NCBI GenBank assembly: GCA_903919035.1
Contig: CAIXGY010000192.1
Span: 1 to 41,824, forward strand
DNA from: an uncultured Planctomycetaceae bacterium
GTDB lineage: Bacteria > Planctomycetota > Planctomycetia > Pirellulales > UBA1268
Reading direction: 5' to 3'
DNA length: 41,824 bases
A program made the translations under genes and the position numbers. This document shows, one piece after another, positions 13,682-25,920 of the stretch. The notes under the pieces are model-generated. The model made no database searches, had not been told where the DNA came from, and worked only from the letters and a program-made list of their open reading frames with translations. Position 1 is the first letter of the stretch. Each line of letters opens with the position of its first letter.

Positions 13682-16060
13682 TCACCGTTGTAGCGATTCC
13701 GCGTGCGGCCGACAGGCCGGCGCGATCCACGGCGCCGAAACGGTCAGCAGCACCGGCAGGACGACGAGGTTGCCGACGAGCCCACCGGCCATGGTCAGGG
13801 CGGAAAGCCAGCCGAACGACACGGTGGGCATGAAGCCGCTGGTCGTCAGTGCGAGAAAGCCCACGCACAAGGCGAGGGTGGAAAACACCATCGCGCGGCC
13901 CGCGGTCTGGTGGGCGGTGCCCAGGGCGGCGTCGAGCGAGCGGCCCTCCGCGAGCCGGCGGCGGAACGCCACGATGTAGTGGATCGAACTGTCGACCGAC
14001 AGTCCCATCGAGACGGCCGCGATCATCGCCGTCCCCATGTTGACCTGGATGCCGGCCCAGCCGAGCAGGCCGAGCACGACGAAGATCGGCAGGCCGTTGG
14101 GCACCAGCGCGATCGCGGCGACGAGCAGGCTGCGGAAGGCGACCGCGAGCAGGAGGAAGATCCCGACCGCCGCGATGAGGAACGTGAGCCACTGGTCCGC
14201 GAGCAGGCGGTGGACGAGTTGCGCGAGCAGGACGAAGAACCCGGTCACCTCCCCGCCGGCGCGGCCCGCGGCCGCCGGATACTCCGCGGCGACGATCCGC
14301 CGAACCTGACCGATGATCGCATCCTTGGCCGCGGCGGGCTGCCGCTCGCGGGCGCGGAGCATCACCCGCAGCCAGGTCGAGCCGTCCTGCGGATCCCGGC
14401 CGACGAGCCCGCCGGTGATGTGAGGCAGGGCCGCCCGCAGCGACGCGAGCAGGGCGGTCACCCGCCGATCGTCGCCCACCAGCGCGCCGAGCGGCCCGAG
14501 CGGCGGGGCGGCATCGAGCACATCGGCGAGACAGAGCACCTTCGTGAGGCCGGGCGTCTGGCGGCCATCCGCGTCGGTGACCACGACCTCCCGCCGCAGC
14601 CGATCCGCGAGCCGCTCGAGCGCCGCGATCTGGGCCGCGTCGACCGGATCCCGTGCGGGCACGAGCACGTCCCACACGCCCGCGCCCCCGAGCCGCGACT
14701 CGACGAGATCGTAGGCGGCGACCGTCGGACTGCCGGGACGGAAGTTGCGCGTGAAGTCGGTCTCGACCGTGAGCCAGCGCATGCCCGCGGTGGCGATGGC
14801 GGCCGCCGTCGCGGACGCGAGGAGAATCGGAAGCGGGTGTCGGACGATCCGGGCGACGAGCCGGTCGAGCGCCGCCTCGAGCGCGCCTTCGCCCCAGGCC
14901 ATCCGCGGATCGGTGTCGAATCGGCCCGCGAGCGCGAGGCAGGGCAGGGCGAGGCCCGCAGCCACGAGCACCATCACCGCGCCCGTCGCCGTCATGACGC
15001 CGAAGTCGTGCACCGGCCCCACGTCGCTGGCCAGCAGCGAGCCGAAGCCGACGACATCGGTGGCGATCGCGCCGACCACCGGCCAGAAGAGGATCGCGAT
15101 CGATTCGCGGAGCGCGGCGGCGGGTTCGAGGCCCAGCGATCGCTGCCGGCGAAACTCCACGATCACGTGGGTCACGGTGCCGATGCCGACCACCGTGATC
15201 ATCGCGGAGAGCATGGTCGACACCATCGTCAGCTTGAGGCCCGCCAGGGCCAGCGCACCGCGGGTCGACCACAGGGCGAGGAGCACCACGGCCAGCGGCA
15301 CGACGAGCCAGCGGATGCTGCGAAACGAGGCGAGCAGCACGCCACCGGCCAACAGGCCGCTGGCGATGCCCAGCAGGTTGCCGTCCCGCTCCAGCATCGC
15401 GAAGCCGTCGCGGAGCATGGCCGGTTCGCCGGCCAGGGTGCCGGCGGGCAGGTCCGCCATCCGTGTCCGCAGCGCGTCGATCGTGCCGGCGCGGGAGACG
15501 GCGCGCTGGCGCTGGGTGACGACTCCTGCGGGCGGTGGCTCGAGCACGCAGGCGACGCCCGCGGTGCGGTGATCGGCGCCGACGACGTAGCCCTCCAGGA
15601 GGCCCACGAGGGTCCGCGCCCAGTTGCCGGTGGCCGGTGAGTCGAGATCGACGATCGCCGTGCCCAGGGGCGTGCTGGCGAGGCTCGTCGTCGAGGCCAC
15701 GCCCGGCACCTCGGCCAGTTCCGCAGCCAGCGCCCGCAGCCGCATGGCGCCGGCCGGCGTGAACAGGTCGGGATCGTCGTAGGCCGCCAGCACGACCTCG
15801 GTCGACCCGAACAGCCGCGCCATCCGTGCGTAGGGCACCAGGGCCGGATCGGAGCGGTCGAACATCGCGTCGATCGAGCGCGAGAATTCCAGGTGTCGCG
15901 ACCGTTCGACGGAGACCACGGCCAGCCCGATGCCCGCGAGTGCGAGCAGCACGCGGCGGGCCACGAGCCAGCCGGCGACCCGGTCGGCGACGCGGCGCAT
16001 GCGAGGGGTTCCGGACGACGGGGGAAGAGGCGGCGGTGGCGGCGGCCGGCTCCGCGGCAT
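13682..16060 (-). CDS. MMPL/RND-family exporter
   Basis: A 792-residue protein with about 12 membrane helices arranged as two halves, each with one helix, a large extracytoplasmic loop and five helices. The second half contains GLSVDSSIHYIVAFRR, typical of the sterol-sensing/MMPL helix region, and the second loop begins TVETDFTRNF. This fits single-chain RND exporters such as the HpnN-like group that move hydrophobic lipids or hopanoids; the cargo here is unknown. The start at 16060 gives a proline-rich N-terminus (MPRSRPPPPPPLPPSSG). An ATG at 16000 (MRRVADRVAG) is an equally possible start. No clear ribosome site separates them. It is divergent from the LptD-like gene. Confidence 0.82.
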   Translation of the reverse strand: MPRSRPPPPPPLPPSSGTPRMRRVADRVAGWLVARRVLLALAGIGLAVVSVERSRHLEFSRSIDAMFDRSDPALVPYARMARLFGSTEVVLAAYDDPDLFTPAGAMRLRALAAELAEVPGVASTTSLASTPLGTAIVDLDSPATGNWARTLVGLLEGYVVGADHRTAGVACVLEPPPAGVVTQRQRAVSRAGTIDALRTRMADLPAGTLAGEPAMLRDGFAMLERDGNLLGIASGLLAGGVLLASFRSIRWLVVPLAVVLLALWSTRGALALAGLKLTMVSTMLSAMITVVGIGTVTHVIVEFRRQRSLGLEPAAALRESIAILFWPVVGAIATDVVGFGSLLASDVGPVHDFGVMTATGAVMVLVAAGLALPCLALAGRFDTDPRMAWGEGALEAALDRLVARIVRHPLPILLASATAAAIATAGMRWLTVETDFTRNFRPGSPTVAAYDLVESRLGGAGVWDVLVPARDPVDAAQIAALERLADRLRREVVVTDADGRQTPGLTKVLCLADVLDAAPPLGPLGALVGDDRRVTALLASLRAALPHITGGLVGRDPQDGSTWLRVMLRARERQPAAAKDAIIGQVRRIVAAEYPAAAGRAGGEVTGFFVLLAQLVHRLLADQWLTFLIAAVGIFLLLAVAFRSLLVAAIALVPNGLPIFVVLGLLGWAGIQVNMGTAMIAAVSMGLSVDSSIHYIVAFRRRLAEGRSLDAALGTAHQTAGRAMVFSTLALCVGFLALTTSGFMPTVSFGWLSALTMAGGLVGNLVVLPVLLTVSAPWIAPACRPHAESLQR

Positions 16061-16091
16061 GGTGGGCTGGCTGGGCAGCCGGAAGGGACGC

Positions 16092-16097
16092 AGTTTA
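16092..16097 (-). promoter_or_regulatory. Candidate -10 box for the exporter-pepA unit
   Basis: On the minus strand this reads TAAACT, about 32 nt upstream of the 16060 start. No convincing -35 is seen. It lies back to back with the plus-strand promoter at 16132-16161. Confidence 0.3.
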
Positions 16098-16131
16098 CCG
16101 AGCCTGCCGGAAGCGCGGCCACCGCGGAGCC

Positions 16132-16161
16132 TTGATTCGTTTTCGGCCGCATTTCTATAGT
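16132..16161 (+). promoter_or_regulatory. Sigma-70-type promoter of the LptD-like gene
   Basis: TTGATT (16132-16137), 18-bp spacer, TATAGT (16156-16161): five of six matches in the -10. Initiation near 16168 would leave a leader of ~40 nt containing a GAGGAA ribosome site (16194-16199) before the GTG start at 16207. Confidence 0.6.
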
Positions 16162-16206
16162 CCCGCGATTTTTCAGCCCCGCTTCCCGCCCCCGCGAGGA
16201 ACCCGA

Positions 16207-19200
16207 GTGTTCCAGCGCGATCGGACCACTTCCACCGACAAGAGCCGCTGGCGCGCCGCCTCGCCGCCACCGGTCCGCGCCGCGCTCGTGATCGTGTGGT
16301 GTCTCGTTGCCGCCGCGCGCGCCGGGGCGCCGCCGGAATTCGTCGTGCCCGGCGCGAGCGCGGGATCACTCGCTGCGTTGCCGGCGCGCGGTCTCGCCGC
16401 GGCCATCGCCGAGGCCGGCAGGATCGAGGTGCCGGCGGCCGATCCGCGGCAGACGCTCGTCGTCCGTGCCACCCAGGCGTCGCGGTGGACCGAGGGTTCC
16501 TACGACGTCTGGCACCTCACGGGCGGTGTCACGATCCGGCAGGGAGCGACGGAGGCCACGGCGCACGAGGCGGTCGTATGGATCGATCGGGCCGGCGATC
16601 CCGAAGCCGGCGCCGATTCACCCCGGCCGCGAAGCATGCTGGCCCGGCTGGCGGGTGACGTGAAGGTGCGGACGCGCGACGAGACGACCGCGACGGTCCG
16701 TGGCCCGACGTGGGCCGGTCGCTTCTGGGCGCTCGACGAACCGACACTCGACTTCGCCAGCGTCACGGACGGCGCCGGCGCGCCGCCGCGCTACGAGCGG
16801 CCGGTCGACGCCGCCGGCACGAGCCCGGTCGCCGAGCCGCACGGCGTCGACGGCGTCGAGCAGGCGCAGTTCAGTGAGTTCGGTGCGCCGGCCGTGCCTC
16901 AGGTGACGCCTGCCGCGCCGCCCGCCCGTCGGCTTCGCGCGTTCCCGCGGTCGAGCACGCCGCTGGCCGTCCGCTGGTTCCCCAGCCCGTCGGGCACCGA
17001 GTGGATCGCCGTGATCACCTCCGGCGTGAACCTCGTCGTCGACGGCGTCGACCCCGCCGGGCCGCTCGACGTCTCCGCCGACCGGCTCGTCATCTGGACC
17101 CGCGGCCAGGCCCAGCCCGACCTCGGCGGCAGCGCCACGCAGGCCGCTGACGTGCCGCTCGAACTCTACATGGAAGGCAACGTGATCTTCCGGCAGGGGC
17201 AGCGGGTGGTCGAGGCGGCGAACATGTTCTACGACGTGCCGCGATCGAGCGGCGTGATCACCGGGGCCACCGTGCTCACGCCGGTCGACAACTACTCGGG
17301 TGCCGTCCGCCTCCGGGCCGACGTGCTCCGCCAGGTGGACCGCAGCCGTTTCGTCGCCCAGCGCACCGGCCTCACGTCGAGCCGCCTCGGCGTGCCGTCG
17401 TGGGAGTTTCGCTCGCGCGAGCTCCAGTTCACCGACGAGCAGGTGCCGATCCCAGGCTCCGACGGCCGGCCCGTCGTCGATCCTGCCACCGGCGAGCCGC
17501 AGGTCGAACACCAGACGTTCATCACCAGCCGGGGCAACACCGTGACGGTCGGAGGCGTGCCCGTGCTGTGGTGGCCCGTGCTCGCCACCGACGCCCGCAA
17601 GCCCACCTTCTACATCAACAATGCGCAGGTGAAGAACGACCAAATCTTCGGCACGCAGTTGCTGACGAGCTGGGATGCCTTCCAGGTCTTCGGCTGGCGA
17701 CAGCCGCCGGCCGGTGTCGATTGGGATTTCGACGTCGATTACCTGAGCCTCCGCGGACCCGGCGGCGGGACGTCGCTGCTCTACAATCGGCCCGACTTCC
17801 TCTGGCTGGGCACGCCGGCCAGCGGCGACCTCGACGCCTGGTTCGTCGGCGATGTGGGACGCGACAACCTCGGCCTCTATCGCCGGGATTTCACCTACCC
17901 GGGCTTTCCGAGCCGCACGTTCCGCGGGCGGTCGTTCTGGCGACACCGGCAGGATCTCGGAGGCGGCTGGCAGGCCCGCGGCACCGCCGGCTGGATCAGC
18001 GACATGAATTTTCTCGAGGAATACTACGAGGCGGAATGGGAGGAGGGCTACGAGCAGCGGACGTGGCTCGACCTGCGGCGGCCGATCGAGAACCGGGAGT
18101 TGCGGCTGCTGTCGAGCGTCCGCCTCGATCCCTTCTTCACGCAGACCGAGTGGTGGCCGCGGCTCGATCATTATTTCCTCGGTCAACCGCTCCTGGGCGA
18201 CGCCGTCACGTGGTACGAGCATTCGGGGCTCGCCTACGCCCGCCAGAATCTCCCGCAGACTCCCACCGTCGGGCAGGGCCTGAACATCTGGACGACGCTG
18301 CCGTACGAGAACGACGTGATCGGCGAGCGGTTCTCGACCCGCCACGAACTCGACCTGCCCTTCCAGGCCGGGGCCGTGAAGCTGGTGCCCTATGCGCTCG
18401 GCGAACTTGCCCACTGGGGCCAGGACATCACCCAGTCGCCCATCGACCGCGCCTATGGCCAGGTCGGGATCCGCGCCGCGCTGCCGATGTGGACGGTGGA
18501 CAACACCGTCGAGAGCCGCCTGTGGAACGTCCACGGCCTCGCCCACAAGGTCGTCCTCGAGGGCGAGTTCTCCTACACCGAGGCCACGCAGTCGCTCGAC
18601 CAGTTTCCGCTCTACGACCAGATCGACGACGACGCGATCAACCAATACCGTCGCAACATTCCCTACTGGGACTACGGCGCCGTCCCGGGTAGCCCGCTGC
18701 CGCTGCCGGCGGCCATCGTCTTCGGACCCGACCAGAAGTACGACCCGCGAACCTACGCGGTCCGCCGCGGCATGGCCGGCTGGGTGACCGGCCCGACCGA
18801 AATCGCGGACGATCTGACCGCGTTCCGCGTGGCAGCCCGCCAGCGCTGGCAGACCAAGCGCGGCCCGGTCGGGGCCCGGCGGATCATCGACTGGATCACC
18901 TTCGACGTGGACGGTGAGTTCTTTCCGGTCGCGAGCCAGAACTTCGGGCAGATCCTCGGCCTGTGGCAGTACGACTTCCGCTGGCACGTGGGGGACCGCA
19001 CGACCGTGCTCTCCACGGCCGACGTCGATTTCTTCTCCGGCGGGCAGCAGCTCTACACCGTGGGCGCCCTCCTCAACCGCACGCCCCGGGGGAGCTTCTA
19101 CATCGGCTTCAATCAGTTCGGAGGCCCGATCAGCGCGGCCGTGCTCACCGGCTCCTACACCTACCGCATGAGCCCGAAGTGGGCGAGTTCCTTCGGTTCC

Positions 19201-19413
19201 GCGATCGATCTCACGGGCCGCAACATCGGCCAGAATTTCCAGCTCGTGCGAATCGGCGAGTCATTCCTGATGACGTTCGGATTCAACGTCGACTACAGCC
19301 GCAACAACGTGGGTGTGACCTTCAACTTGGAGCCGCGATTCCTCTCACGGACCCAGTTTGCGAGCCGCTCCGGCATCGACATCCCGGTCGCGGGCGCCTA
19401 CGGTCTCGAATGA
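16207..19413 (+). CDS. lptD: LptD-like outer membrane LPS-assembly protein
   Basis: A 1068-residue protein with a signal peptide (hydrophobic core ~24-36, cleavage near AARAGA). Several OstA/LptA-type beta segments follow: WHLTGGVTIRQGATEATAHE near residue 100, VNLVVDGVDPAGPLDVSADR near 280 and LYMEGNVIFRQGQRVVEAA near 320. From about 480 the sequence becomes Trp/Tyr-rich with alternating strands (LRLLSSVRLDPFFTQTEWW, LPYENDVIGERFSTRHELD), as expected for the C-terminal barrel. It should insert LPS into the outer leaflet with LptE and the Lpt bridge. The GTG start is supported by GAGGAA at 16194-16199 and a promoter. It is longer than the usual ~780 residues, mainly because of the extra OstA region. 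Symbol by family resemblance. Confidence 0.75.
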   Translation: MFQRDRTTSTDKSRWRAASPPPVRAALVIVWCLVAAARAGAPPEFVVPGASAGSLAALPARGLAAAIAEAGRIEVPAADPRQTLVVRATQASRWTEGSYDVWHLTGGVTIRQGATEATAHEAVVWIDRAGDPEAGADSPRPRSMLARLAGDVKVRTRDETTATVRGPTWAGRFWALDEPTLDFASVTDGAGAPPRYERPVDAAGTSPVAEPHGVDGVEQAQFSEFGAPAVPQVTPAAPPARRLRAFPRSSTPLAVRWFPSPSGTEWIAVITSGVNLVVDGVDPAGPLDVSADRLVIWTRGQAQPDLGGSATQAADVPLELYMEGNVIFRQGQRVVEAANMFYDVPRSSGVITGATVLTPVDNYSGAVRLRADVLRQVDRSRFVAQRTGLTSSRLGVPSWEFRSRELQFTDEQVPIPGSDGRPVVDPATGEPQVEHQTFITSRGNTVTVGGVPVLWWPVLATDARKPTFYINNAQVKNDQIFGTQLLTSWDAFQVFGWRQPPAGVDWDFDVDYLSLRGPGGGTSLLYNRPDFLWLGTPASGDLDAWFVGDVGRDNLGLYRRDFTYPGFPSRTFRGRSFWRHRQDLGGGWQARGTAGWISDMNFLEEYYEAEWEEGYEQRTWLDLRRPIENRELRLLSSVRLDPFFTQTEWWPRLDHYFLGQPLLGDAVTWYEHSGLAYARQNLPQTPTVGQGLNIWTTLPYENDVIGERFSTRHELDLPFQAGAVKLVPYALGELAHWGQDITQSPIDRAYGQVGIRAALPMWTVDNTVESRLWNVHGLAHKVVLEGEFSYTEATQSLDQFPLYDQIDDDAINQYRRNIPYWDYGAVPGSPLPLPAAIVFGPDQKYDPRTYAVRRGMAGWVTGPTEIADDLTAFRVAARQRWQTKRGPVGARRIIDWITFDVDGEFFPVASQNFGQILGLWQYDFRWHVGDRTTVLSTADVDFFSGGQQLYTVGALLNRTPRGSFYIGFNQFGGPISAAVLTGSYTYRMSPKWASSFGSAIDLTGRNIGQNFQLVRIGESFLMTFGFNVDYSRNNVGVTFNLEPRFLSRTQFASRSGIDIPVAGAYGLE

Positions 19414-20472: not shown

Positions 20473-20533
20473 CGGCCACGGGGCCGGTTCTCCGGCCGCG
20501 GCGAACCTTTTTCAGGCCGGGGCCGTATCGGAG

Positions 20534-21214
20534 ATGGATGTGCACGACGCTCATACCGGCTCCGGGCAGGGTTCGTCCCGCTCCGGGGGTTCCGTGGCCG
20601 ACAACGGCGGCGGGAGCCCCGCAGCGGCGGTCTGCGACGAAGATCTGCTCCGCCGGTGCCGGTCGGGTGGAGACCCGGCCGCGTTCGAGACGCTCGTGCA
20701 TCGGTACGAACGCGAACTGTTCAGTTATCTCCGCCGCTACCTCGGCAGCGCGGAGATGGCGGAGGACGTGTTCCAGGCGACGTTTCTCCAGGTCCATCTG
20801 AAGAAGGAGCATTTCGAGGATGGACGCCGCTTCCGCCCTTGGCTTTACGCGATCGCCACCAACCAGGCCATCGACGCACAGCGGAGGAATCGCCGCCATC
20901 GCATGGCCAGCCTCGACGCCCGCACGGGCGACGGGGATGACGTGGGTTCGCTCGTGGAGATGCTGCAGGGCGGCGGCGGCACGGCCGTCCAGGAACTCGA
21001 GAACGAAGAGTCCCGAGAGTGGGTGCGCTCCGCGGTCGAGGCCCTGCCCGAAACATTGCGGGGAGCGCTCGTGTTGGTCTACCACCAGGGTCTCAAGTAT
21101 CGCGAGGCGGCCGACGTCCTCGGCGTCCCCGTGGGAACCGTGAAGAGCCGCTTGAACGCGGCACTCGTGAAACTCAACGAAACATGGCAACGATCCCGGG
21201 AGCAGCGAGCGTGA
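20534..21214 (+). CDS. ECF-type RNA polymerase sigma factor
   Basis: A 226-residue sigma-70-family protein. An acidic/Gly-rich N-terminal tail (~1-33) precedes region 2 (~36-122), with MAEDVFQATFLQVH and FRPWLYAIATNQAIDAQRR at 100-118. After a linker, region 4 (~160-218) has the helix-turn-helix KYREAADVLGVPVGTVKSRL (188-207). It should direct RNA polymerase to a specific set of promoters. The stop is 3 bp before the start of the next gene, which looks like its membrane anti-sigma factor, so the pair should be co-translated. The target regulon is unknown. Confidence 0.93.
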   Translation: MDVHDAHTGSGQGSSRSGGSVADNGGGSPAAAVCDEDLLRRCRSGGDPAAFETLVHRYERELFSYLRRYLGSAEMAEDVFQATFLQVHLKKEHFEDGRRFRPWLYAIATNQAIDAQRRNRRHRMASLDARTGDGDDVGSLVEMLQGGGGTAVQELENEESREWVRSAVEALPETLRGALVLVYHQGLKYREAADVLGVPVGTVKSRLNAALVKLNETWQRSREQRA

Positions 21215-21217
21215 ACC

Positions 21218-22198
21218 ATGGGCGACGAGGCGACGATGCGTGAGCAACTCGTGGGCTACGTGCTCGATGCGCTGGACGCCGACGAGCGGCGGGACGTCGA
21301 GGCGGCGCTCGCCGATCCGCTCGAGGGGGCCGGCCTGCGGCGCGATCTCGAGATGGTGCGGTCGGCCGTGGCGCCGCTGGCTTTCGACCGGGATCCGCCG
21401 GCCGTGCCCGCCGGTCTCGCCGGTCGGACGCTCGCGTTCGTGGCCGCACAGGCCACGGCCGAGGGTCGGCCGGTCATCCGCCCGCTGTCACCGTCGAGCG
21501 AGACCGGCAGGCCCCGAAGCCGGGTCTGGATCGACAGGGCGCTGATGGCGGCGACGGCTCTCGCAGCCTGCATTCTCGTGCTGCCGCTGGTACGCCAGGC
21601 GGTGGACGACTCCCGCGCGAGGCGCACGGAGCGGAATCTGCAACTGCTGTCGACCGCCCTCCAGGGCTATGCGGAGTCGCACGGCTTCTATCCCACGCCG
21701 CCCGGCGAGGGGCCGCTCTCCCGCGCCGGTCTCTACGCCCCGACGCTCGTCGCCGACGAGCGGATTCTCGCCACCGACGGCACGCTGCTCGTGCCGGGCT
21801 CCGCGTTGGCGACCCGGGGTCGATTCCGCGTGCCGACGCTCGCCGAGCTCGAGGCGGCGGCGGGCACGCCGCGATTCGACGAACTGGTGCGCGAGATGGG
21901 GGGCGATTACGGCTACACGCTCGGCCACCGCGACGCGGCGGGCGTCCTTCAGCCCAACCGCAACCGCCGGCGGTTCGACCATCCGCTCCTCGCCGACGAT
22001 CCCGACCACACCGATGAGAAGACCGACAATCATCCCGACGGGATTCACCACGTGCTCTACGAGGATGGCCACGTGGCTCGGCTCCGCGCCGATGGGCTCC
22101 ACCGCGGCGACCACCTTTACCGCAACCACGAGGGCAAGGTCGCGGCGGGCGTCGATCAAGACGACGCCGTGATCGGCGACTCGGAAGACCGGCCGTAG
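21218..22198 (+). CDS. Presumed membrane anti-sigma factor with a pseudopilin-like (DUF1559-type) outer domain
   Basis: A 326-residue single-pass protein. Residues 8-31 (LVGYVLDALDADERRDVEAA) resemble the N-terminal anti-sigma domain of RskA-type factors, without the zinc-binding His/Cys motif. A membrane helix spans about 108-126. Directly after it comes a helix (127-151) that reads like the start of planctomycete DUF1559 pseudopilins: RTERNLQLLSTALQGYAESH, then GFYPTPP. Near the C-terminus, NHPDGIHHVLYEDGHV (271-286) resembles the H-x(9)-DG tail motif of that family. No prepilin-peptidase site (GFTLVE) precedes the helix, so it should stay membrane-anchored. Its position 3 bp after the sigma gene supports a sensor/anti-sigma role; this is inference. 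Confidence 0.72.
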   Translation: MGDEATMREQLVGYVLDALDADERRDVEAALADPLEGAGLRRDLEMVRSAVAPLAFDRDPPAVPAGLAGRTLAFVAAQATAEGRPVIRPLSPSSETGRPRSRVWIDRALMAATALAACILVLPLVRQAVDDSRARRTERNLQLLSTALQGYAESHGFYPTPPGEGPLSRAGLYAPTLVADERILATDGTLLVPGSALATRGRFRVPTLAELEAAAGTPRFDELVREMGGDYGYTLGHRDAAGVLQPNRNRRRFDHPLLADDPDHTDEKTDNHPDGIHHVLYEDGHVARLRADGLHRGDHLYRNHEGKVAAGVDQDDAVIGDSEDRP

Positions 22199-24338: not shown

Positions 24339-25775
24339 TCACCGGGAAAGATGGCGGCGGTATTCGGCATCGAGGTCTGCGGAGGTCGTGCCGCACAGGC
24401 GGGCAAGCGTGTCGGGATCGGCCGTGCCGGCATAGACCCGCGCGAGATGTTCCACGAAGGCCTCGCGATACCTCCCGCCCCGGCCGTTCATGAGGAAGTC
24501 GGCGATGCCGGCGATCTCGTCGTACATCCTCGGCAGCCGTTCGTCGGCCTGGAAGGCGGCGCGGCCGAGGCCGCAGAGTTCGGCGATCGGCACATGAAAC
24601 TCCTCCTCGACCAGCAGCCGGCGCGCGGCGGGCATGCGGCCCGCGTCGGGGCCGCCGACCGTCCAGCCAAACCCGGTCGCGCGGGCCGACTCGAGATAGC
24701 AGGCGGCGGCCTCGATCGCCCAGAAGTTGCAGCGTTCACCAGCGAGCGGGCTCGTCGCGGTGGACTCGGCACAGAGCTGGTGGGCCGCCTCGTGCCGCAC
24801 GGTCGTGGGCGGAACGCCGGCCGACGCGGCTCTGGCCGCTCCGGTGGCCGCGCAGAACCAAGCCGTCTGCGTGGGACGCCAGTAGATGGCCGTGGTCCGC
24901 GCGATCGCGGGTTCCACGCGGGTGAGTTCGGTGACGTATTGCTCCCGGTCGACGCAGAGCACGGCCGCGAAGGGCTCGGCGGCGCGCGGCACGCTTCCAC
25001 CCACGGTCACGTGCCGCCACTCGGTGGGCCGAAGGGAGACCGCACCGAATACCTGTCGCCAGATCGCCGCCGTCTCCTCGAGGCCGGCCGCCAGGGCCGC
25101 AGCGTCGGCGTATGGGGCGGCCGAGAGGATCTCCCAATGATCCGACGAGAATCGGCGGCCGTCGGCCACGGTGCGGCGCCGCGCATCGTCTTCGTCGGCT
25201 GGGACCCAGCGGCCGCGGTCCGGCCGCTCGCCAGCCTGAAACCGCGCGAGTCGGCCCCGCGGTTGCCAGCCGAACGCGGGATCCCACGCCTCGCCGCGGT
25301 CGAGCCGCTCGGCGGCCTCGGGCACCACCCAGCGGTCACCGCGTCGCACGTATCCCGCCGCGGCCCGCGCCCGCGCATGATCGGGATCGTCACGCAGCGC
25401 GCGATACAGCAACTCGACGCTCGCGCAGGATCGTGTCTCCGCGCGTGCCAGCGCGAACGTCCCCGCCGCGCGTTCGCGCCTGGCGGCGAGGAACTCCTCC
25501 CAAAGCTTCTCCGCTGTGTCGCCTTCGATGCCTGCTGGCCTCTCCGTTTGCGGCAGGATCGCGAGCACGACCTGCCGGTCGTCGAGCGCCGGCAACGACC
25601 ACCCGCGCACGACCGCCGCGATGTCCTTCACGCCTGCCGCCTCGGCCCGGGTGGCGATCCCCGCAACCCGCTCCCCGAACTCCTCGTCCAACCGCGTGAG
25701 CGATCGTTCCGGCGCGGGCGCAGCGACACAATTCAGTGCTGCGCAGGCACACGCCGCGAAGGACCACAGCACCAT
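24339..25775 (-). CDS. Secreted HEAAH protein, DUF1570-like putative metallopeptidase
   Basis: A 478-residue protein with a signal peptide (MVLWSFAACACAALNCVAA). A zinc-peptidase-like motif HEAAH is at 328-332, and Glu355 in FWAIEAAACYLES is spaced as in gluzincins; both fit the planctomycete DUF1570 family. Before it, GYVRRGDRWVVPEAAERL (~141-158) is a segment often seen in these proteins. Catalysis has not been shown for the family. The start at 25775 is chosen for its signal peptide. The frame stays open upstream to 25916, but that part is translated from the dispersed repeat and should be ignored. It lies just upstream of tkt on the same strand; the two genes probably have separate promoters. 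Confidence 0.68.
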   Translation of the reverse strand: MVLWSFAACACAALNCVAAPAPERSLTRLDEEFGERVAGIATRAEAAGVKDIAAVVRGWSLPALDDRQVVLAILPQTERPAGIEGDTAEKLWEEFLAARRERAAGTFALARAETRSCASVELLYRALRDDPDHARARAAAGYVRRGDRWVVPEAAERLDRGEAWDPAFGWQPRGRLARFQAGERPDRGRWVPADEDDARRRTVADGRRFSSDHWEILSAAPYADAAALAAGLEETAAIWRQVFGAVSLRPTEWRHVTVGGSVPRAAEPFAAVLCVDREQYVTELTRVEPAIARTTAIYWRPTQTAWFCAATGAARAASAGVPPTTVRHEAAHQLCAESTATSPLAGERCNFWAIEAAACYLESARATGFGWTVGGPDAGRMPAARRLLVEEEFHVPIAELCGLGRAAFQADERLPRMYDEIAGIADFLMNGRGGRYREAFVEHLARVYAGTADPDTLARLCGTTSADLDAEYRRHLSR

Positions 25776-25788
25776 GGTGGGCGTGCGA

Positions 25789-25920
25789 GGGGCTGCCCGT
25801 GCCCCGCGAGCCTGCGTTGGCGGCACGTGGTTGCATCGCTGGCGGAGCGTAGCCGGCATCGAGTGAGCGAAGCCCGGGATGCCTGCGGTGAGCGTCCGGC
25901 AATGGGGCATGGGCAACCTC
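25789..25920 (+). repeat. Dispersed ~130-bp repeat with inverted ends, copy 3
   Basis: The left end GGGGCTGCCCGTGCCCC (25789-25805) is matched in inverted form by 25904-25920 (14 of 17). Shared internal blocks: GCGTTGGCGGC, CATCGAGTGAGCGAAGCCC and GTGAGCGTCCGG. It fills the gap between the DUF1570-like gene and the sugar isomerase gene, ending 13 bp upstream of the former's start. That gene's promoter must therefore lie inside the repeat or beyond it. Confidence 0.75.

Follow-up and report, generated by a model that had tools for sequence, protein, structure and literature searches.

The DNA analysed here (the window) is a stretch of 41,824 nucleotides from an uncultured Planctomycetaceae bacterium. 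Near its middle lie a gene for an ECF sigma factor and a gene for a putative membrane-bound anti-sigma factor, with the following features.

20503 to 20527, forward strand: putative autoregulatory ECF-type promoter, GAACC-N16-CGTA
20534 to 21214, forward strand: ECF sigma factor, 226 aa
21218 to 22198, forward strand: putative anti-sigma factor whose outer domain is of pseudopilin type, annotated length 326 aa, with 21236 as the probable conserved start
21236 to 21457, forward strand: predicted cytoplasmic anti-sigma domain, about residues 7-80, with no zinc motif
21533 to 21535, forward strand: Asp106, aligned by HMM to Glu5 of the prepilin/pseudopilin motif
21536 to 21595, forward strand: single transmembrane helix, about residues 107-126, the membrane half of a pilin-type alpha-1
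21596 to 22195, forward strand: predicted extracytoplasmic DUF1559/pseudopilin-type module, residues 127-326
21626 to 21793, forward strand: T137 and V192, at the DUF1559 cysteine sites (RRxxC, CPS) found in distant homologues, both Cys being absent in the window protein
22031 to 22069, forward strand: H272-x10-D283-G284 tail motif, counterpart of the DUF1559 H-x9-DG

The first gene product has both region 2 and region 4 of ECF sigma factors (Sigma70_r2, 2.7e-17; r4_2, 3.4e-13), and it matches the sigma70-ECF model TIGR02937 with 102 bits against a cut-off of 42.9. The start of its gene, ATGGATxTGCACGA, is kept among close relatives. Both reading frames lie on the forward strand where the first-pass annotation had placed them, with the sigma regions in the first. 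The same annotation had the second gene beginning 3 bp after the sigma stop, which holds for the reading frame as annotated but not if translation begins at M7 (21236), where the gap is 21 bp. In many homologues (e.g. L008, L010, L013, L014, L017, L019-L022) the reading frame extends by no more than a few codons upstream of the Met that corresponds to M7, which makes the latter start the more likely one.

The N-terminal part of the second protein had been likened to an RskA-type anti-sigma domain, and the resemblance is real though sub-threshold. RskA_N aligned with residues 14-33 (E 0.006, below threshold), and the NCBIfam 'anti-sigma factor' model NF052375 aligned with residues 11-139 (4.8e-12, below its cut-off); among diverse homologues, 36 of 38 matched the latter model. 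Compared with the RskA structure 4nqw, the profile of the homologues gave an E-value of 0.59 only. The single membrane helix proposed earlier coincides with a hydropathy peak at residues 107-126 and is included in the HMM alignment to DUF1559.

The residues after this helix had been read as the mature start of a planctomycete pseudopilin. They are present as quoted, and the module that they open resembles DUF1559 in profile-profile comparison (hhalign) of 95 homologues with 30 DUF1559 proteins, most of the 30 from the window's own genome. The probability was 98.7% (E 4e-16) with the helix included and 97.1% (E 7e-11) for the post-helix part alone, for which the reversed profile gave 0.2%; all controls, namely reversed profiles and the N-terminal domain, remained below 1%. 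Most of the alignment score comes from the helix and the first 35 post-helix residues, and the mid-part of the outer domain aligned only loosely to DUF1559. This concentration of the score is what speaks for the similarity being an artefact that a hydrophobic helix and a short motif would produce, a reading we nevertheless regard as extremely improbable. The tail alone, with alpha-1 removed, still reached 71% (E 3.6e-5), and the cysteine sites, the CP motif and the spacing all coincide with DUF1559, so that the artefact was rejected on the post-helix-only and tail-only comparisons. The window protein itself had no match to Pfam DUF1559 (PF07596), its score falling short of the gathering score. 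Because 20 of 38 homologues matched PF07596 individually (best 1.8e-6, E up to 0.01), the resemblance is beyond chance. A search of the phylum with the family profile retrieved DUF1559-like proteins, and its best matches in PDB were type IV pilins, all marginal (geopilin 9egp, 0.0025; PilE1 8pfb, 0.0046; GspG 5wda, 0.047). AlphaFold models of the full length and of the outer part were poor, with a pLDDT of 42 and a long helix at residues 99-155 that was only partly confident. Taken at the level of sequence profiles, the outer module is judged homologous to DUF1559 pseudopilins, membrane helix included.

The global HMM alignment was collinear, pairing Asp106 with Glu5, Pro123 with the conserved proline, the RRxxC and CPS cysteine sites with each other, and H-x10-DG with H-x9-DG. 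All 95 homologues have an acidic residue at position 106 (93 D, 2 E), and the spacing from the acid to Pro123 is 17 residues in 94 of 95, as is the Glu5-Pro spacing in 30 of 30 DUF1559 proteins. That an acid is so strictly retained at a membrane helix speaks for a role within the membrane. The prepilin cleavage motif (G-1, F1) is missing, as the first-pass annotation had noted: neither N_methyl nor GFxxxE matched the window protein, and the residue five before the acid is of Arg or Ser type, not Gly. Since the DUF1559 similarity spans the helix with the acid at Glu5, the anti-sigma domain would be positioned as the leader peptide is in a prepilin. The proposed tail motif is likewise present, conserved among the homologues in H (93/95), D and G (86/95 each) and the x10 spacing (84/95). 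The model for the H-X9-DG tail, TIGR04294, was matched by 8 of 38 homologues (E up to 0.1) and not by the window protein with its x10 spacing. Both cysteines occur in 55 of the 95 homologues, the second only in 15, the first only in none and neither in 25; because the first-site cysteine is never seen without the second, the pair fits a disulfide.

Homologues of the putative anti-sigma factor were found in 67 of 72 genomes of the family and in 129 of 146 sampled genomes of the order, usually as one copy per genome, some of the order-level matches being partial. In almost every locus read, the gene immediately upstream encodes the sigma factor. The first-pass annotation had named a lack of linkage to sigma genes as grounds for giving up its reading; for full-length homologues the linkage held across the order and in other classes. 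The pair is the only part of the neighbourhood conserved order-wide, and no further neighbour is common to the whole order. Viral contigs searched for relatives contained none. A phylum-wide profile search yielded eight loci from other classes (L284-L291) in which an anti-sigma-like domain, a helix and a DUF1559-like part follow an ECF gene; two of these proteins (L289 and L291) reached the DUF1559 cut-off, and L285 carries the curated anti-sigma zinc domain zf-HC2 (7e-7).

These data bear on whether the second protein is an inhibitor at all. With the N-terminal domain of the window protein below curated cut-offs, it could be a membrane co-activator, or a partner needing the sigma gene in some other way, but this seems quite improbable given the NCBIfam matches of the homologues, the zinc finger of L285 in the same architecture, and the fact that sigma/anti-sigma operons with autoregulation are a standard arrangement.

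Some minor features were seen in these loci and elsewhere in the window. Two homologues (L036 in G034:C196, and G018:C4:180658-181706) are split into two frames or carry an in-frame stop, and may be broken copies or products of sequencing errors. In the window, a long ORF at 15826-19413 is reminiscent, by eye from sequence, of an outer-membrane LptD/OstA-like protein, and the protein at 24339-25916 has a weak DUF1570 match (E 0.2).

Upstream of the sigma gene, GAACC (20503-20507) and CGTA (20524-20527) are separated by N16, and with 6 nt between the motif and the sigma ATG the transcript would be nearly leaderless. Of 92 homologous loci, 60 carry this motif in almost the same position (49 with N16, 10 with N15 and 1 with N17), counts that are not independent events because the 92 loci are related. 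The spacer has diverged across loci, and the background of the motif is about 0.02 per kb. GAACC-N16-CGTA occurs at 21 sites in the window's own genome, compared with 8 for the reversed control, and at 85 sites in eight related genomes, compared with 27 for a scrambled motif; the reversed-pattern control was uneven in the eight genomes, being high in two. A promoter of this kind could also be recognised by other ECF factors that these genomes encode.

A putative regulon was assembled from motif and orthology only in nine related genomes. Of 92 motif sites read, 58 fall in 14 recurrent groups of homologous downstream genes, while the 27 sites of the scrambled motif gave no recurrent group. Recurrent putative targets include the operon itself, an ABC exporter, a FlgM-like protein, HtrA/DegP, an FKBP-domain protein, a DksA-like protein, a SigA-like sigma factor and a small protein, with Pfam support from Trypsin_2 plus PDZ, FKBP_C, ABC_membrane, zf-dskA_traR and FlgM. 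An HtrA gene behind an exact-pattern site was seen in relatives only, none being found in the window's own genome. No recognised DUF1559 or pilus-assembly gene was among the putative targets of the nine genomes, and 32 DUF1559 loci contained three motif sites, all with a spacer other than N16 and set aside as evidence, and no clear promoter copy. Envelope-stress regulons characteristically contain a protease and an isomerase, and the putative regulon looks like one for envelope stress rather than for pilus building.

Several individual proteins were observed behind GAACC-N16-CGTA. L170 (G000:C204:12483) and its orthologues L187, L189, L205, L217 and L233 encode a protein of about 95 aa, 'AEISESEKNALLSLVC', with no Pfam match, and L173 (G000:C254:2284) and six orthologues encode a FlgM-like anti-sigma-28 protein. 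LExRRxLA-like N-terminal signals were noticed in the proteins of L177, L179, L188, L214 and L243, the first of which combines FG-GAP repeats with an FKBP domain.

The homology, the gene linkage, the promoter conservation and the recurrence of putative targets were computed directly, while sigma binding, inhibition at rest, the release mechanism and the signal are parts of the switch that we infer. The pair is probably an RpoE-like, self-activating ECF switch in which the membrane anti-sigma factor joins a sigma-binding domain to an uncleaved DUF1559-type pseudopilin sensor. The cytoplasmic domain would be fused to a complete pseudopilin, with the acid in alpha-1, a DUF1559-like outer domain and the H-x10-DG tail. 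Because the anti-sigma domain would stand in for the prepilin leader peptide, the protein would stay anchored, and the pilin module would serve as the sensor. At rest the anti-sigma factor would hold the sigma factor; a periplasmic disturbance, most likely of envelope-protein folding, export or assembly, would be sensed by the module and lead to sigma release. The freed sigma factor would transcribe its own operon and the GAACC-N16-CGTA targets, among them HtrA/DegP, the FKBP isomerase and the ABC exporter in relatives. Release may proceed via proteolysis; genes of the site-2 protease family are present in the window's genome, and this family is, to our knowledge, nearly universal. The first-pass annotation had already taken the pseudopilin module for the sensor of a sigma/anti-sigma switch, a reading that the linkage and the DUF1559 homology support, and we favour the view that the protein signals rather than builds a pilus.

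What the module senses could be narrowed further. In a specific form of this best explanation, alpha-1 would pack via its Glu5-like acid on unassembled DUF1559 pseudopilins or on the inner-membrane secretion platform, so that the protein would report how much pseudopilin is supplied or whether assembly is jammed, in the way that PilS reports on PilA (PMC6058289). The invariably acidic position and the proline spacing in the 95 homologues agree with such a sensor, as does the fact that the genome also encodes about 27 DUF1559 proteins along with a prepilin peptidase. Against this, the putative targets include no recognised DUF1559 or assembly gene, and thus pilin assembly as the specific signal is weakened; the Glu5 site in the eight other-class fusions is acidic in three only (E in L289 and L291, D in L290), with Q in L287 and L288, G in L284 and A in L285 and L286. 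We therefore hold this narrower form to be possible but not likely. Slightly less likely still is its extension to the whole phylum, in which an uncleaved-pseudopilin inhibitor would monitor the DUF1559 pool or its assembly via the Glu5-like acid and convert a disturbance into an envelope-stress response.

A different account, to which we give about the same limited credence as to the narrower form, is that the DUF1559-like part is functionally unrelated to pilins and just a convenient folded outer domain that binds a sugar, a lipid or a small molecule. PF07596 has the alias SBP_bac_10, and one publication refers to it as a solute-binding family (PMC2754498); the window family has lost the two cysteines while keeping other positions of its own (D260, N303, D316). 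Yet the solute-binding fold is a supposition, and a plain sensor does not need the strict retention of an acid at the helix start.

Among known systems, the RskA/RseA class I anti-sigma factors (SigK-RskA, RpoE-RseA; PMC7406223) share with the window protein an adjacent sigma gene, an N-terminal cytoplasmic anti-sigma domain, one membrane helix, an outer sensor domain and autoregulation. Conserved adjacency to an ECF sigma gene, a mark of class I, is found here as well, whereas helix and outer domain of the window protein appear derived from DUF1559/pseudopilins. With the DUF1559/SBP_bac_10 H-x9-DG prepilin-like proteins (PMC8567305) the family shares alpha-1, the acid at position 5, the proline at +17 and the H-x-DG tail, as well as the C and CPS motifs in its distant members; it differs in lacking a prepilin cleavage site, in having an anti-sigma part of about 100 residues for the leader, in its H-x10-DG and in its pairing with a sigma gene. 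The sensor PilS of PilA in Pseudomonas aeruginosa (PMC6058289) may be a functional analogue, as a membrane regulator reading pilin-type helices, but it is a histidine kinase with six membrane segments and itself no pilin.

E. coli RpoE is a self-activating ECF sigma factor with periplasmic protease and isomerase targets. The window system parallels it by motif and orthology, through an autoregulated promoter and periplasmic quality-control targets (HtrA and FKBP in relatives), and differs in its GAACC-N16-CGTA promoter, in its sensor and in putative targets that include FlgM-like, DksA-like and planctomycete surface proteins. A literature search for DUF1559 together with anti-sigma returned no paper, an earlier mention in the planctomycete ECF literature being possible, and pilin-type anti-sigma sensing of the cell surface is apparently undescribed. 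Judged by the literature searched, an anti-sigma factor whose membrane helix and sensor are of pilin type would be without precedent, and the pair may regulate the envelope-stress response throughout an order of planctomycetes. DUF1559 is among the most expanded planctomycete families, with no function assigned. A single-copy relative that forms part of a transcription switch whose promoter is readable and whose targets are predicted would offer a genetic handle on both DUF1559 and the envelope.

DUF1559-type modules without a prepilin motif were also observed behind other N-terminal parts (L102-L105, L108), and in L108 (740-1729, G184) a zinc-ribbon-like N-terminus and a membrane helix precede the module. 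The occurrence of uncleaved DUF1559 fusions suggests a wider theme.
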